Origin: Streptomyces sp. NBC_01723
GTDB lineage: Bacteria; Actinomycetota; Actinomycetes; Streptomycetales; Streptomycetaceae
NCBI RefSeq assembly: GCF_036246005.1
Contig: NZ_CP109171.1
Coordinates: forward strand, 5,258,001-5,322,000
DNA length: 64,000 nucleotides
Reading direction: 5' to 3'
Shown here: piece after piece, positions 5,271 through 54,693 of the stretch
How the letters are laid out: each line of letters begins with the position of its first letter
Position numbering within the stretch: the stretch's first letter is position 1
The notes under the pieces: generated by a model
What the model was told of the DNA's origin: nothing
Seen by the model: only the letters and a program-made list of their open reading frames with translations
Databases searched by the model: none
Program-made: the position numbers and the translations under genes

Positions 5271-5647
5271 GTCGCGCCCCTCCGTACTCCCGTGCCGTAC
5301 CGCCACGCCTTACCCGGAGCAACGCACGGACAGCCCGGACGGCACTGGACAAGCCCTGGACAGTCCCGGACGCGCTTTCCTCAGGCACCGGAACCCGCGT
5401 CCTCGTGCTCCGGTGCCGCAAACGGCCAAAGACCAAGAAGGAAGAGGGAAAGAACCCGACCAAGCCCCACCCTCTCCGCCCGTGGCCAAAGCTCACTCGG
5501 GCGGGTGAACATCCCGGGCTCGGCTGGATTTCGTGGCGGCCGAGGCTCCACGCTCGGCGCAGGACAACAGCAGACATGCGACGGCCCCCGCCGGGACGGC
5601 AATCCCAATGCGAGGGCCTGACCACCGAGGAAGAGAGAACCTTCCCG
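5271..5647. other. Divergent intergenic region, 377 bp
   Basis: Lies between the minus-strand XRE regulator and the plus-strand winged-helix gene, so it must hold both promoters. I see no convincing ORF. It contains a purine-rich stretch (around 5430-5455) and a good ribosome site (GAGGAAGAGAG) just before 5648. No clear perfect palindrome longer than 8 bp was found by eye. Confidence 0.5.
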
Positions 5648-49603: not shown

Positions 49604-49814
49604 CCGGGCCTGGCCGTAGTGTCACGCGTGGTGACCTCTTGATCTCTTAGCGCGACGGAACGCGCCCCGCACGGGAAAGTTACGACCGTTCACCCCTTTT
49701 GGTGGTGCGACGGACAACCGTCCATCGCGCCACCGCGTTGTCCGCATACGTTCGTCCCGCTGCGAGCCGCCGGGCCAACGGCGGCTCCCCAGACGGGAGA
49801 TCGGGGGTGCGCGC

Positions 49815-51533
49815 GTGCGCATCGGACTGCTTACGGAGGGTGGCTATCCGTATGTGAGCGGTGAGGCCGGACTCTGGTGCGACCGGCTCGTGCGCGGGCT
49901 GGATCGGCACGAGTTCGACGTCTACGCGCTCAGCCGCAGCGAGCACCAGGAGGCCGAGGGGTGGGTGCCGCTGCCGCCGCAGGTCAGCCGGGTGCGCACC
50001 GCCTCGCTGTGGGAGACCGAGGACGACGGGATCGTGCTCGGACGGCGCGCGCGCCGGCGCTTCGCCGACTGCTACGGCGAGATCGCCACGGCCCTGTGCA
50101 CGGCCGCACCCGGAGATCCGTCCGCGGTCTCCGAGGAGGCGTCGGCCCTAGAGGCGGACCGTTTCGCCAGCGCGCTGTACGGCCTCGCCGAACTCGCCCG
50201 CGACGAGGGCGGGCTGTCCGCCGCGCTCCGGTCGGACATCGCCGTGCGCGCCCTGGAACGCGCCTGTCGCGCGCCCGGCGCCCACCGCTCCGCCCGCGAG
50301 GCGCGCGTCCCCGACCTGCTCGCCGTCGCCGCGCGCCTCGAACGCGCCCTGCGCCCCCTGTCGCTCGACTGGTACGAGGACGACGGCCTCGGAGCCGTGG
50401 ACCTGTGCCACGCGGCCTCCGGCGGCCCGGCCGCCCTGCCCGGTCTGCTCGCCCGTCAATTCCACGACGTGCCGCTGCTGGTGACCGAGTACGGGGTCCG
50501 GCTGCGCTCGCACTACCTCACGGAACCCGACGCCCCGCCGTCCACACGGACCCTGCTCGCCGCGTTCCACGGGCGGCTGGCCGCCGAGACCTACCGGCGC
50601 GCGGCCGTGATCACACCCGGCAACACGCACGCCCGCCGCTGGCAGGAACGCTGCGGTGCCGACCGTGCCAAGCTCCGCACGGTCCACCCGGGCATGGACG
50701 CCGCGCCCTTCGCCGAAGCGGGGGAGTCGCCGGAGTGCGCCGATCCGCGGACCCTCGTCTGGGTCGGCCGCGTGGAGCCGGCGAAGGACCTGGTCTCGCT
50801 GCTGCACGCCTTCGCGGAGATCCGCAGGGCCGAGCCCGGGGCACGCCTGCGGGTCGTCGGCACGCCGTCCGGCCCCGAGGGCGCGGCCTACCTCGCGCAC
50901 TGCAAGGCCCTGGCCGCACAGCTGTTCCCCGACGAGGCCGACGGTCCGCACGCCGTCGGCCGCAACCCGGTCTCCTTCGAGGAGACCGGCGGGCCGGAAC
51001 TTCCGTCCCGCGCCGACGCGTACGCCTCCGCCGCCCTGGTGGTGCTCTCCAGCGTCGTCGAGGGCTTCCCGGCCGGGCTGGTCGAGGCCATGTTCTGCGG
51101 TCGCGCGACCGTGTCCACGGACGTCGGCGCGGTGGTGGAGGCCATCGGCGGCACCGGACTCGTCGTGCCCCCGCGCAATCCGCGGGCGCTCGCCGAGGCG
51201 TGCGTCGCCCTGCTGCGCGACCCCGAGCGCCGCGAGCGCCTCGGAGCCGCCGCGCGCGCCCGCGCACTGGAGCTGTTCACCGTCGAGCAGAACGTCGCGG
51301 CATTTCACGGCATTTACCTGGAGATCCTCTCGCGCACACCGGTGCGGCGCGTCCTCCTCGACGACATGGGCGCACCCCTGCCGTTCGGCGTACCGGCCGA
51401 GGCCCACGTCCCGGGCCGGTGGGCCGACCCCGCGGCCCGGATCGCCGTACGCGGCGGCCCCGGCTGGGCGACGGACACACCCGTCGCGGCCACGACCCCC
51501 GTCTCCGCCGCGCCCGAGGGAGTGTCCCGATGA
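49815..51533 (+). CDS. PelF-type glycosyltransferase (DUF3492 + GT4)
   Basis: 572 residues, GTG 49815. N-terminal DUF3492 (IGLLTEGGYPYVSGEAGLWC, the PelF signature; LSLDWYEDDGLGAVDLCHAA; LLVTEYGVRLRSHYL). C-terminal GT-B domain: LVWVGRVEPAKDLVSLLHAF, FEETGGPELPSRADAYASAA, and the donor-binding ASAALVVLSSVVEGFPAGLVEAM with E-x7-E. The family polymerises amino sugars from UDP donors (PelF of the Pel polysaccharide). It starts an operon: ATGA overlap with the membrane protein. Product here is inferred, not known. Confidence 0.88.
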   Translation: MRIGLLTEGGYPYVSGEAGLWCDRLVRGLDRHEFDVYALSRSEHQEAEGWVPLPPQVSRVRTASLWETEDDGIVLGRRARRRFADCYGEIATALCTAAPGDPSAVSEEASALEADRFASALYGLAELARDEGGLSAALRSDIAVRALERACRAPGAHRSAREARVPDLLAVAARLERALRPLSLDWYEDDGLGAVDLCHAASGGPAALPGLLARQFHDVPLLVTEYGVRLRSHYLTEPDAPPSTRTLLAAFHGRLAAETYRRAAVITPGNTHARRWQERCGADRAKLRTVHPGMDAAPFAEAGESPECADPRTLVWVGRVEPAKDLVSLLHAFAEIRRAEPGARLRVVGTPSGPEGAAYLAHCKALAAQLFPDEADGPHAVGRNPVSFEETGGPELPSRADAYASAALVVLSSVVEGFPAGLVEAMFCGRATVSTDVGAVVEAIGGTGLVVPPRNPRALAEACVALLRDPERRERLGAAARARALELFTVEQNVAAFHGIYLEILSRTPVRRVLLDDMGAPLPFGVPAEAHVPGRWADPAARIAVRGGPGWATDTPVAATTPVSAAPEGVSR

Positions 51534-52798
51534 GCGGCCTCGGCGAACTGGACCGGCCCGAGACGCCCAGCAGTCCGGGGGCCTGGGACGAACGCTCACG
51601 CCGTTCCCTGACGGACGTCGGTGGCGACGAGGGCGGGACGGATGAGAGCGGGAGCCGTGGCGCGGGCGCGGTGGCGTCCTCGCGAGACCGGCAGTCGCCC
51701 TCCCGCGCCCGCCGGTCCAACGCGGACCCCGTGAAGGCCCTGATGCACCGCCACCGCGACCTGTGCGAACGCGCCGTGGACCCGCTGGAGATCGCGGCCG
51801 GCCTGGAGGCGCACGGCGTCACCGACCGTACCGCCGCACGCTTCCGGCACCGGGACGTCTTCTCCCTCGCGGAGGAGATGTACGCCCGCGTCCCGCGCGA
51901 CGACGACCCGGCGCCGCGCCTCACGAACCCGCCGGCCCCGAGCGTCCGCGCCGCGTGGCTCCTGCTCGCCCTGCTGCCCGGCGTCCTGTGCGCCGCCGCC
52001 GTGGCCGGCCTGCGCCTCACCGACGGGAGGCCACGCCTGATCGCGGCCGCCGTCGGCGCGCTCGCCGTGACGATGGCGCTGCGCGCGGCACTGCGCCGAG
52101 GCCCGTTGAGCGCCGCCACCCGAACCTCCGGTACCTGGACCTGCTGGCTGGTCGGCTACGCCCTCCTCGGCGACGGACTCCTGCGCACCGCCCTCGCCGG
52201 AGGCCCCGACGCCCTGCCGGACGGCACGGCCGACGGGGAGTGGCCCCTCACCGCCGCCCCCGTCGTGGCGCTCGCGCTGTCCTGTGCGCCCGCCGCGGTC
52301 TGCGCCCACCTCTTCGCCGTGCGCGCCCGGCGCAAACTGACGTCCAGCCGCGGCCTCGCCGACTTCTCCGCCTCCGTACGCCCCCTCCTGCTCGGCACGT
52401 TCGCCCTGTACATGGGCGTTCTGACCGCCCTGCTCACGCTGACCGGCGCGGTCCTGGACGAGCCCGCGGCACACCCCCAGGCTCTCGCCCTGGGCGCCCT
52501 GCTGCTGCTCGCCCGGCTGCTCACCGTGCACGGCCACGCCCACTCCGCCACGCTCGTCCTCACCGCCACGGCCGCCGCCGAGGGAGCCGCCCTGGCCACG
52601 CTCTTCGCCGGCCGCCTCCCCGGCTGTGACTTCCTGGCCGTGCCCGTGGAGGCCCTGGTGGCCGCCTGCGGCCCGGCCGGTGTGCCCACGGCGGCCTGCG
52701 GCCTCGGCGCGCTGACCCTCCTGGTGCACGCGTCCCGTCGCCTGACCAGGGCGAGCGCCCACGCCCATGCCGACGCAGCGACGGAGCGGCCGGGATGA
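51530..52798 (+). CDS. Polytopic membrane protein of the PelF-like operon
   Basis: 422 residues, ATG overlapping the glycosyltransferase stop. The N-terminal 65 residues are disordered; then a helical cytosolic part (ADPVKALMHRHRDLCERAVD, and VTDRTAARFRHRDVFSLAEE); then about nine hydrophobic helices to the end. It does not show clear MATE/PelG motifs that I can recognise, but would suit an export partner for a cytosolic polymerase. The N-terminal segment is also seen in other Streptomyces membrane proteins. Function unknown. Confidence 0.8.
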   Translation: MSGLGELDRPETPSSPGAWDERSRRSLTDVGGDEGGTDESGSRGAGAVASSRDRQSPSRARRSNADPVKALMHRHRDLCERAVDPLEIAAGLEAHGVTDRTAARFRHRDVFSLAEEMYARVPRDDDPAPRLTNPPAPSVRAAWLLLALLPGVLCAAAVAGLRLTDGRPRLIAAAVGALAVTMALRAALRRGPLSAATRTSGTWTCWLVGYALLGDGLLRTALAGGPDALPDGTADGEWPLTAAPVVALALSCAPAAVCAHLFAVRARRKLTSSRGLADFSASVRPLLLGTFALYMGVLTALLTLTGAVLDEPAAHPQALALGALLLLARLLTVHGHAHSATLVLTATAAAEGAALATLFAGRLPGCDFLAVPVEALVAACGPAGVPTAACGLGALTLLVHASRRLTRASAHAHADAATERPG

Positions 52799-52853
52799 GC
52801 ACGCCCCGGGCAGCCCTGCACACGTCCGCAAACACCCCCTGAAGGAGCCCCAG

Positions 52854-52901
52854 ATGACCACCTCCCGACCCGACGCCTCGGCACCGGGAGCCGCCCGATG
52901 A
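52854..52901 (+). CDS. 15-codon ORF translationally coupled to the epimerase
   Basis: ATG with GAAGGAG upstream, reading MTTSRPDASAPGAAR and then TGA, which overlaps the epimerase ATG as ATGA. The epimerase start itself lacks a ribosome site beyond the GGGAG inside this ORF. It may be a coupling leader peptide. Whether the peptide is made is unknown. Confidence 0.5.
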   Translation: MTTSRPDASAPGAAR

Positions 52902-53956
52902 GAGTCCTGCTGATCGGAGCCAACGGCTACATCGGACGCTTCGTCGCCGACCGTCTCCTCGCCGACCCGGCCGTCCAGCTCACCGCTCTCGGCCGCGGCG
53001 ACGACGCCGACGTCCGCTTCGACCTCGCCACCGGCAGCCCCGGCGCCCTCACCCGCTTCCTGGACGCGGTCCACCCCGGCGTCGTCGTCAACTGCGCGGG
53101 CGCCACCCGGGGCGGCGCCCGCGAACTCACCCGGCACAACACCGTCGCCGTCGCCACCGTCTGCGAGGCCCTGCGCCGCAGCGGGTGCGGCGCCCGGCTG
53201 GTGCAGGTCGGCTGCAGCGCGGAGTACGGGCCCAGCCAGCCCGGCTCCTCCACCGCCGAGGACGCCGTGCCCCGCCCCGGCGGCCCGTACGGCGTGAGCA
53301 AACTCGCCGCGACCGAGCTGGTCCTCGGCTCCGGCCTGGACGCCGTCGTCCTCCGCGTCTTCTCACCCGCGGGCCCCGGCACCCCCGCCGGCTCACCGCT
53401 GGGCCGCCTCGCCGAGGCCATGCGCCGCGCCATGCAGTCCGGGGACGGTGAGCTGCGGCTCGGCGGTCTCGGTGCCCAGCGCGACTTCATCGACGTCCGC
53501 GACGTCGCCCGCGCCGTGCACGCCGCCTCGCTCTCCGCCGCCCAGGGCGTCATCAACATCGGCTCCGGCCGCGCCGTCCGCCTGCGCGACGCCGCCGCCA
53601 CCCTCGCCCGCGTGGCCGGCTACGGCGGCGCCCTGCACGAACTCGACGGACCGCCCGGCGCGCTGCGGCCCACCATCGGCCATCCCCGCACCGAATCCGT
53701 CGGGCACCGCGTCGACGCCCTGGGCCACCACCGCGCCGACGGCCTCGGCCACCACCGCCCGGAACCCCTCGGGCACCGCGGTGACCGCGCCGACACCGAG
53801 CACGCCGCGCCGGTCTCCTACCCCTACCCGGACGGCTGCGGCAGCTGGCAGCAGGCCGATGTGCGCACCGCGCGCGACCGGCTCGGCTGGCGGCCCCGGA
53901 TCGGTCTCGAAGAGTCCCTCGCGGACATCTGGATGGAGGCGGCGTGTCGTATCTGA
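52898..53956 (+). CDS. NAD-dependent sugar-nucleotide epimerase/dehydratase with GH-rich insertion
   Basis: 352 residues, ATG 52898. Extended SDR: N-terminal GANGYIGRFVADRLL (NAD loop), VVVNCAGATRGGARELTRHN, catalytic S/Y-x3-K as GCSAEYGPSQP and PYGVSKLAATEL, then RDFIDVRDVARAV. At about residues 267-308 there is an inserted region with repeated (A/P)LGHHR-type units before WQQADVRTARDRLGWRPR. Relatives make UDP-Gal/GalNAc or dTDP-sugars. It likely supplies donor sugar to the adjacent PelF-type enzyme. Overlaps the next gene by 13 nt. Confidence 0.88.
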   Translation: MRVLLIGANGYIGRFVADRLLADPAVQLTALGRGDDADVRFDLATGSPGALTRFLDAVHPGVVVNCAGATRGGARELTRHNTVAVATVCEALRRSGCGARLVQVGCSAEYGPSQPGSSTAEDAVPRPGGPYGVSKLAATELVLGSGLDAVVLRVFSPAGPGTPAGSPLGRLAEAMRRAMQSGDGELRLGGLGAQRDFIDVRDVARAVHAASLSAAQGVINIGSGRAVRLRDAAATLARVAGYGGALHELDGPPGALRPTIGHPRTESVGHRVDALGHHRADGLGHHRPEPLGHRGDRADTEHAAPVSYPYPDGCGSWQQADVRTARDRLGWRPRIGLEESLADIWMEAACRI

Positions 53957-54693
53957 CCAGCACGAGGACGGGCACCGCGAGCACCGGCATACGCACCGGC
54001 CTCGGCGTCCCCGGGCTGGCCCACCCCCTCGTCGCCCCCGATGAGTGGGCCGGCCTCACCTGCCCCGGTACCCCCCTGCACTGGGTCGTCCTCAACATCG
54101 CCGACGGCCCCGGCGCCCACCCGGACCCGCGCTGCCTGGAGGCCGCCGGGCGCCTGCGCAACGCGGGCGTCCGCGTCCTCGGCCACGTCGACGCCGCGTA
54201 CGGTGCACGAAGCCTCGGCGATCAGATCTCCGAGGCCCACCGGTATCTCGACTGGTACCAGGTCGACGGCTTCCTCCTCGACCGCTGCCCGTCCGAACGG
54301 GCCGCCCTCCCCGAGATCCGCCGCACCGTCGGCACACTCCGCGTGATCCGTGACGACGCTCACATCGTCCTCTGCCACGGCGCCCACCCCTACCCCGGCT
54401 ACGCCGAGAACGCCGACCAACTCGTGACCTTCTCCGGCACCTGGGCCGACTACCGCTGGTCGCAGGCGGCCGAGTGGAGCGCCGACTATCCGCCCGAGCG
54501 CTTCTGCCACTTCGTCCACGGCGTCCCGCGCGGGCACCTGGAGGAGGCGCTGCGCATCGCCCGCTGGCAGGGTGCCGCGACGATCTACTTCACCGATCGC
54601 ACGGACCTGGGCGGCCGGGTGGACCCCTGGGAGACGATGCCCGGCTACTGGGACGAAATCGTCTCGCGGGTCGGGACGGGTGTCTCGGAATGA
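53944..54693 (+). CDS. Spherulation-specific family 4 protein (putative TIM-barrel glycosidase)
   Basis: 249 residues, GTG 53944 within the end of the epimerase gene. Spherulin-4 pattern: WVVLNIADGPGAHPDPRCLE, VLGHVDAAYGARSLGDQISE, DWYQVDGFLLDRCPSERAAL and FSGTWADYRW. The acidic residues in VDGFLLDR are candidate catalytic groups, as in GH135/GH114 relatives that cut alpha-1,4-galactosamine polymers. No signal peptide is seen, so it would act inside or be exported otherwise. Role in trimming the operon's polysaccharide is inferred. Confidence 0.85.
   Translation: MSYLTSTRTGTASTGIRTGLGVPGLAHPLVAPDEWAGLTCPGTPLHWVVLNIADGPGAHPDPRCLEAAGRLRNAGVRVLGHVDAAYGARSLGDQISEAHRYLDWYQVDGFLLDRCPSERAALPEIRRTVGTLRVIRDDAHIVLCHGAHPYPGYAENADQLVTFSGTWADYRWSQAAEWSADYPPERFCHFVHGVPRGHLEEALRIARWQGAATIYFTDRTDLGGRVDPWETMPGYWDEIVSRVGTGVSE

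Follow-up and report, generated by a model that had tools for sequence, protein, structure and literature searches.

The PelF/spherulin-4 operon beside moeZ in Streptomyces sp. NBC_01723 appears to be a reduced descendant of a larger polysaccharide cluster. It lies within a 64,000-nucleotide stretch (contig NZ_CP109171.1, positions 5,258,001 to 5,322,000; hereafter the window). Its four genes encode a PelF-like glycosyltransferase (GT), a polytopic membrane protein (MP), a sugar-nucleotide short-chain dehydrogenase/reductase (SDR) and a spherulin-4 family protein (SPH). Our preferred reading, to which we assign a probability of roughly 0.55, is that an Agd3-type (galactosaminogalactan/Pel-like) cluster was once complete at the moeZ site, and that its remnant is still glycan-building in Streptomyces, with an SPH that does not trim. 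Genes for the deacetylase, a GH114 protein, a dehydratase and a nucleotidyltransferase would have been lost from the moeZ locus. GT and MP would continue to assemble a glycan, either short or modified, that serves the developing envelope, and the SDR would prepare or bind the sugar nucleotide that feeds them. The dead spherulin-4 would be an intracellular binding or control partner, rather than a trimming enzyme. Judged from its sequence, the operon is not a Pel- or galactosaminogalactan-type system for a secreted, deacetylated and trimmed exopolysaccharide. The operon may have taken on a new job, as its genes are kept and are mostly induced once the mycelium of a model species has differentiated.

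A complete cluster at the same chromosomal site

Bacterial exopolysaccharide operons containing Agd3 have already been described (Bamford et al. 2020, PMC7229062). Seven loci of this kind (hereafter agd3-type) carry homologues of GT and MP; L084-L088 and L095 are located elsewhere in Streptomyces, and L089 is found in another family. An Agd3-like gene is present in six of the seven, with none within the stretch fetched for L086. Genes for a LegB-like 4,6-dehydratase and a nucleotidyltransferase occur in five and a GH114 gene in one. Six have a spherulin-4 gene, always with the catalytic Asp and Glu. The protein encoded upstream in L089 scores above the Pfam cut-offs for CBM87_Agd3 and Agd3_CE and matches PDB 6nwz, which is the Aspergillus deacetylase Agd3. 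A seven-member profile of Agd3-like proteins (L089 included) has 6nwz as its sole match. Searched singly, the L085 protein has no Pfam match, and the L088 protein has no PDB match and falls below the Agd3_CE cut-off.

The L194 locus belongs to a related genus of the family and occupies the moeZ site. With its upstream part (L204), it contains Agd3-like, GT, MP, dehydratase, nucleotidyltransferase, SDR, spherulin-4 (with Asp and Glu) and GH114 genes. The Agd3-like protein of L204 matches no Pfam family, and aligns at 48-52% to five agd3-type proteins and at 29% to that of L089 (alignment A4). We identify it as Agd3-like because of this alignment and because the profile, L089 included, matches 6nwz. 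In a GT tree of 45 rows, L194 is sister to all 28 reduced copies (support 100/99 and 100/100), and the agd3-type copies and natural GT-MP fusions branch outside this group. An SDR tree of 36 rows agrees, placing L194 outside the reduced rows (support 99/96 and 96/78).

Genes for Agd3, the dehydratase, the nucleotidyltransferase and GH114 are each found in 0/126 reduced loci within the fetched stretches, many of which hold just 1-2 kb upstream of GT. Agd3 searches of the window's own genome were empty, but were run without a positive control. As the full gene set of L194 shares the moeZ position and is the nearest branch to the reduced copies in both trees, the operon looks like a stripped descendant of such a cluster, and loss is the simplest reading. 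A Pel- or galactosaminogalactan-like lineage, which a first-pass annotation of the window had proposed, thus gains support from the L194 cluster and both trees. Two GH114 genes are present elsewhere in the window's genome (G000:C1:2156349-2156993 and 8319065-8319706), unlinked to the operon.

The operon resembles Bamford-type operons in its cytoplasmic GT and multi-spanning membrane protein, and in its spherulin-4 gene, which some actinobacterial members also have; L084-L089, L095 and L194 are homologous loci. In contrast, the Streptomyces locus lacks Agd3, GH114, the dehydratase and the nucleotidyltransferase, its hydrolase site is lost, and it is nearly genus-wide at a fixed site. L194 is a complete relative in the same chromosomal place, and therefore allows function to be compared step by step.

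Conservation in Streptomyces

By sequence searches, the four-gene remnant beside moeZ seems to be carried by nearly all Streptomyces. The best 80 of the 372 loci found were compared; 73 of these 80 named loci show the complete order GT-MP-SDR-SPH-MoeZ, and a contig end falls inside the operon in the other seven. The four genes, which the first-pass annotation treated as one unit, are thus kept together across Streptomyces genomes. The same order, moeZ included, occurs in 27 core loci from further genomes of the genus, where masked bases make the matches of L077 partial. The closest named relative is in Streptomyces sp. WAC 04229, whose spherulin-4 protein is 99% identical.

In the genome counts, we read genus and family as Streptomyces and Streptomycetaceae. 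An MP match (E <= 0.001) was obtained for 23 of the 25 genus members searched and for none of 16 genomes from outside the genus; the two misses are one incomplete and one fragmented assembly. A spherulin-4 relative is present in 236 of 247 genomes of the genus (E <= 1e-8), five of which have weak best hits only (E 1e-35 to 1e-41) that are perhaps not the moeZ copy. SDR relatives occur in 114 of 121 genomes of the family, representing 14 of 16 genera (E <= 1e-40), and a few of these may be a paralogue only. Phylum-wide, a GT relative is found in 14 of 246 genomes (E <= 1e-20), eight of them from the window's genus. No paper dedicated to a Streptomyces PelF/spherulin operon was found in the open-licence literature. 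In public records, the spherulin-4 orthologues P0124, P0126, P0132 and others are labelled "phage tail protein", apparently a misannotation.

The spherulin-4 protein

SPH matches the Spherulin4 family with 80.5 bits (Pfam cut-off 30.2), and its sole PDB relative is Sph3 (5c5g/5d6t; E 1.2e-06). The putative catalytic residues of Sph3 are Asp166, Glu167 and Glu222 (PMC10485009), and the catalytic pair is printed elsewhere as Asp196/Glu222 (PMC12054363). Equivalent positions were compared in 121 sequences (the window plus the best 120 of 1263 hits) and in 81 sequences (the window plus the 80 named loci), two sets with overlapping species. The Asp166 equivalent, Asp113 in the window, is Asp in 103/121 and 73/81, and so not in all relatives. 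The Glu222 equivalent is present in 0/121, 0/81 and none of the 27 core loci. The window SPH has Ser in this place, and reduced loci of the genus have Ser, Thr, Ala, Cys, Arg, Gln or Val. The Glu is kept in all six agd3-type copies and in L194.

Another 20 family loci were selected by a match to the SDR; 13 other genera supplied 18 of them, and the remaining two belong to additional genomes of the window's own genus. Because of this choice, the presence of an SDR in all 20 proves nothing. For 15 of them the stretch has no spherulin-4 match, and the Glu222 place in L187, L188, L192 and L196 holds Ala, Cys, Leu and Asn.

The first-pass annotation had remarked that the hydrolase has no visible signal peptide, and hydropathy indeed reveals neither a hydrophobic stretch nor a signal peptide in SPH. 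Intact agd3-type copies also have no leader sequence by eye. With the catalytic Glu gone in all checked reduced-locus copies and no signal peptide seen, the trimming role given to this protein in that annotation is not supported. SPH is likely a pseudo-hydrolase, and its missing signal peptide is probably explained by its having ceased to be a secreted hydrolase. A Pel-like biofilm polymer should therefore not be assumed from a spherulin-4 or PelF annotation.

The glycosyltransferase and membrane protein

GT contains DUF3492 (98.5 bits) and GT4 domains. Its score for NCBIfam PelF, 100.5 bits, is borderline against the cut-off of 100; six GT relatives and fusions score 147-191. Natural GT-MP fusions (P0242, P0243 and P0244; 974-992 amino acids) cover 75-98% of the joined query at 42-49% identity, and the C-terminal half of each can be aligned with the window MP (E 9e-20 to 4e-12; set of 34 proteins). 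Because these fusions join both proteins, the proposal that GT and MP are one synthase split over two genes is supported. The complete cluster at the same site also supports such a synthase of GT and membrane protein. In fungi, galactosaminogalactan is the product of Gtb3, a putative transmembrane glycosyltransferase (PMC4817252). The joined GT-MP query has no match bearing a fungal name.

MP belongs to no Pfam or NCBIfam family. Structure prediction gives a good model for the fusion (pLDDT 85, pTM 0.84) and a poor one for the window MP (pLDDT 65). The fold of the MP model weakly resembles MOP-superfamily flippases. Foldseek with the fused model gives only GT-B glycosyltransferases among the 50 matches listed, and none names the fold of the membrane half.

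An identification of MP as PelG was considered and rejected. MP has no Pfam match, its profile against two PelG sequences yields a probability of 0.1% (the PelG profile is thin), and the fold search is weak. In line with the first-pass annotation, no PelG was found: PF16933 is unmatched in the window's genome, while the same search yields above-threshold matches in 2 of 198 genomes and also in a control genome. The operon shares with Pel systems, including Gram-positive pelDEADAFG, a PelF-like GT with DUF3492, but differs in having no PelG by Pfam in its genome, an MP that cannot be aligned to the two PelG sequences and a borderline PelF score. At an actinobacterial locus with a PelF-like GT (L092/L208, in G041), a site a few kilobases away matches PelG weakly, its 18.3 bits lying below the cut-off.

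The GT and SDR comparisons use the usual catalytic residues of GT4 and SDR enzymes. The EX7E glutamates and donor Lys are kept in all 73 GT sequences compared. The agd3-type GTs have a GGVS loop (8/8 seen, L194 included), whose second Gly is Asp or Glu in 71/73. Among the 20 family loci, 17 reduced loci have a GT match. The EX7E and R/K motifs are altered in ten of these (L184, L185, L190, L191, L193 and L197-L201), and the other seven keep EX7E.

The sugar-nucleotide dehydrogenase/reductase

The SDR matches the Epimerase family with 130 bits. Its best solved relative is GDP-6-deoxy-D-lyxo-4-hexulose reductase (RMD, PDB 2pk3; E 1e-20, 77.7 bits), and the best UDP-glucose 4-epimerase in the PDB scores 45.9 bits. 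It is far under the NCBIfam cut-offs for galE (34.2/262.3 bits), GDP-fucose synthase (39/500) and rmlD (35.3/224). The hexosamine epimerase role suggested by the first-pass annotation thus finds no backing, as the closest solved enzyme is a 4-hexulose reductase and the galE score is far too low, although the reductase scores are also low.

The catalytic Tyr and Lys are kept in 81/81 SDR sequences, and the catalytic Ser is Cys in 81/81, which distinguishes the protein from RMD. The Ser is present in the SDRs of L189, L194, L184-type loci and three aligned agd3-type copies. A Gly-Arg pair follows beta-2 in 79/81, the other two being gaps; Arg after beta-2 is a trait of NADP-binding SDRs. Taken with the dehydratase and nucleotidyltransferase genes of the full cluster, the SDR's kinship to a reductase suggests that the operon's sugar is of the 6-deoxy or 6-deoxyamino type and not GalNAc.

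The fungal galactosaminogalactan cluster (gtb3, agd3, ega3, sph3 and uge3) likewise brings together a transmembrane GT, a spherulin-4 protein and an SDR. In contrast to that cluster, the SPH of the operon lacks a signal peptide and Glu222, and its SDR is no clear UDP-hexose 4-epimerase.

Near the C-terminal third of the window SDR (53693-53815), a repeated, His-rich segment is inserted. Most orthologues are shorter, at about 317-323 amino acids versus 352 in the window.

Selection and expression

Selection was estimated as the median ratio of nonsynonymous to synonymous substitution rates (dN/dS) versus the window; for each gene, the first 25 named loci that could be used (close relatives) were included. 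The medians are 0.07 for SDR, 0.12 for MoeZ, 0.20 for SPH, 0.23 for GT and 0.37 for MP. Given its value of 0.20, the dead hydrolase is therefore maintained. In four pairs with altered GT motifs, dN/dS is 0.33-0.62 for GT versus 0.07-0.28 for SDR, which indicates weaker constraint on GT. In L197, a single stop codon interrupts the aligned part of GT.

In Streptomyces coelicolor, SCO5178 is moeB (PMC4340878). Because of this assignment and the conserved gene order, SCO5174-5177 are probably that species' copy of the operon. SCO5174, SCO5175 and SCO5177 are listed in a table of genes changed more than 8-fold, with log2 increases of 2.2-3.8 in the second versus the first mycelium (PMC3610822). The table, restricted to conserved genes whose function is unknown, does not list SCO5176. 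Mutants in SCO5174 are described as having reduced actinorhodin (PMC6585502). A nearly genus-wide, development-induced operon poses the question of what becomes of a galactosaminogalactan-type synthase after its deacetylase and hydrolase are lost.

A conserved leader upstream of the operon

About 175 nucleotides upstream of GT are strongly conserved in 70 sequences (the window and 69 named loci). This leader (Table 1) is present in 26 of the 27 core loci (partial in some), 72 of the 80 named loci, 9 of the 21 loci L184-L204 and none of the 12 loci L084-L095. Its folding beats that of shuffled sequences (z -3.9). A 14-pair hairpin within it has 96.1% of cells paired across 46 sequences. In this hairpin, 22 cells are changed on both sides and the covariation score is 0.200, and 0/500 shuffles reach either value. 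Five pairs are changed on both sides, a number that 20/500 shuffles reach, and slid controls give at most 7 cells and 4 pairs. The same 46 sequences yield no consensus structure outside the 14-pair hairpin, and the second hairpin of Table 1 is absent from the consensus. G-U intermediates in the hairpin favour an RNA, although a palindromic protein site would also keep its arms.

The 76-nucleotide core of the leader has one full copy in the genome, the next match having an E value of 0.17. No Rfam family matches the leader at its gathering score. A match to Rfam CC1840 (29.3 bits versus a gathering score of 50) was taken as chance. A BldD box was also rejected: the window's two-mismatch site is not conserved, a one-mismatch site occurs in 5/70, and three mismatches are needed in 34/70. 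A conserved leader that is below every Rfam cut-off could merit separate study. In L189, the leader is found about 220 nucleotides before the SDR beside moeZ, where neither GT nor MP is detected; a DUF3152-like frame lies directly upstream (by eye).

Alternative explanations

Several observations weigh against a stripped, yet still glycan-building, operon. Some Agd3-like proteins, that of L204 among them, match no Pfam Agd3 model above the cut-off when searched alone, and the SDR tree carries a long-branch warning. The complete cluster may have been gained at moeZ in L194's line alone. By hydropathy, MP has fewer membrane segments than its agd3-type relatives. The change in the GT loop could mean that GT is inactive too. 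Glu167 is unusable as evidence, because intact spherulin-4 copies also lack an equivalent (they have Gln or Arg). Finally, decay fits as well as reuse, because of the altered GT motifs in 10/17, the GT dN/dS of 0.33-0.62 and the internal stop in L197.

Perhaps the operon makes no polymer, and its GT, SDR and SPH form a pseudoenzyme complex that binds a sugar nucleotide or glycan and controls development or wall assembly. We regard this as unlikely, although a real possibility. All three soluble proteins have changes at catalytic or substrate-loop positions (the GT loop in 71/73, the SDR Cys in 81/81, and the SPH Glu kept in only 0/121 and 0/81), and purifying selection and developmental induction are consistent with such a complex. 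A precedent exists in the altered, probably inactive PelD epimerase domain of Gram-positive pel operons (PMC7112168). However, the EX7E glutamates and donor Lys of GT (73/73) and the Tyr and Lys of SDR (81/81) remain, and a Ser-to-Cys change in an SDR need not abolish activity. A bolder form of this proposal, which we consider rather doubtful, is that in Streptomyces a whole polysaccharide-synthase operon was converted into a non-synthetic pseudoenzyme complex, which would sense or bind a sugar nucleotide or glycan while the mycelium differentiates and be controlled by a new structured RNA leader present in one copy. Members of the family would then retain the steps from complete, working cluster to complex to loss.

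Slow decay would leave the SDR alone with a job, and GT, MP and SPH as leftovers. Among the 20 SDR-picked family loci, SPH is undetected in 15, GT in two and MP in two, the GT motifs are altered in 10/17, GT is under weaker selection, and SDR is the most constrained gene. Nevertheless, Streptomyces keeps all four genes under purifying selection, with a highly conserved leader and strong induction, and we judge slow decay to be improbable.

The working minimal Pel/galactosaminogalactan system of the first-pass annotation, which would make, export and trim a galactosamine-like polymer, fits the PelF-like GT, the spherulin-4 family membership with Sph3 as sole PDB relative and the descent from agd3-type clusters, but is very improbable given the lost SPH active site with no signal peptide seen, the Agd3-like gene in 0/126 reduced loci within the fetched stretches, the PelG not found in the window's genome and an SDR closest to a reductase.

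Gene arrangement of the operon

The four reading frames of the operon are open on the plus strand at the coordinates in Table 1. The first-pass family calls (DUF3492 with GT4, membrane protein, Epimerase/SDR and Spherulin4) were borne out by family searches and, for the membrane protein, by hydropathy. That annotation also described the junctions as ATGA, coupled or 13-nucleotide overlaps. This holds for the GT and MP genes, which overlap by ATGA at 51530, and for the SDR and SPH genes, which overlap by 13 nucleotides. It does not hold for the junction of MP and SDR, where neither ATGA nor a gene overlap is found; these genes are separated by a gap of 99 nucleotides containing two 15-codon reading frames.

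Table 1. Features of the operon and its leader (positions in the window)
Feature	Position	Strand	Basis
Leader, candidate structured RNA or regulatory region, reaching the GT start codon	49640..49817	+	Conservation; fold z -3.9
14-pair leader hairpin, loop AACC	49700..49735	+	Covariation, 46 sequences
Second hairpin, GAGCCGCCG/CGGCGGCTC, before the ribosome-binding site	49764..49787	+	Sequence and minimum-energy fold
GT: DUF3492 + GT4 glycosyltransferase, PelF-like	49815..51533	+	Family scores; borderline at PelF cut-off
MP: polytopic membrane protein, about 7 membrane segments, conserved helical N-terminal domain	51530..52798	+	Hydropathy; conserved N-terminal block
Short reading frame between MP and SDR, 15 codons; coding status uncertain	52795..52842	+	Sequence inspection
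Short reading frame, 15 codons, ATGA overlap with SDR start; coding status uncertain	52854..52901	+	Sequence inspection
SDR: extended sugar-nucleotide dehydrogenase/reductase; most constrained operon gene	52898..53956	+	Family score; PDB relative; dN/dS
SPH: spherulin-4 (GH135-like), Ser in place of catalytic Glu; likely pseudo-hydrolase	53944..54693	+	Family score; Sph3 alignment

Far from the operon, the window also contains a match to the Rfam sRNA scr4677 (5406-5647, 185.9 bits).

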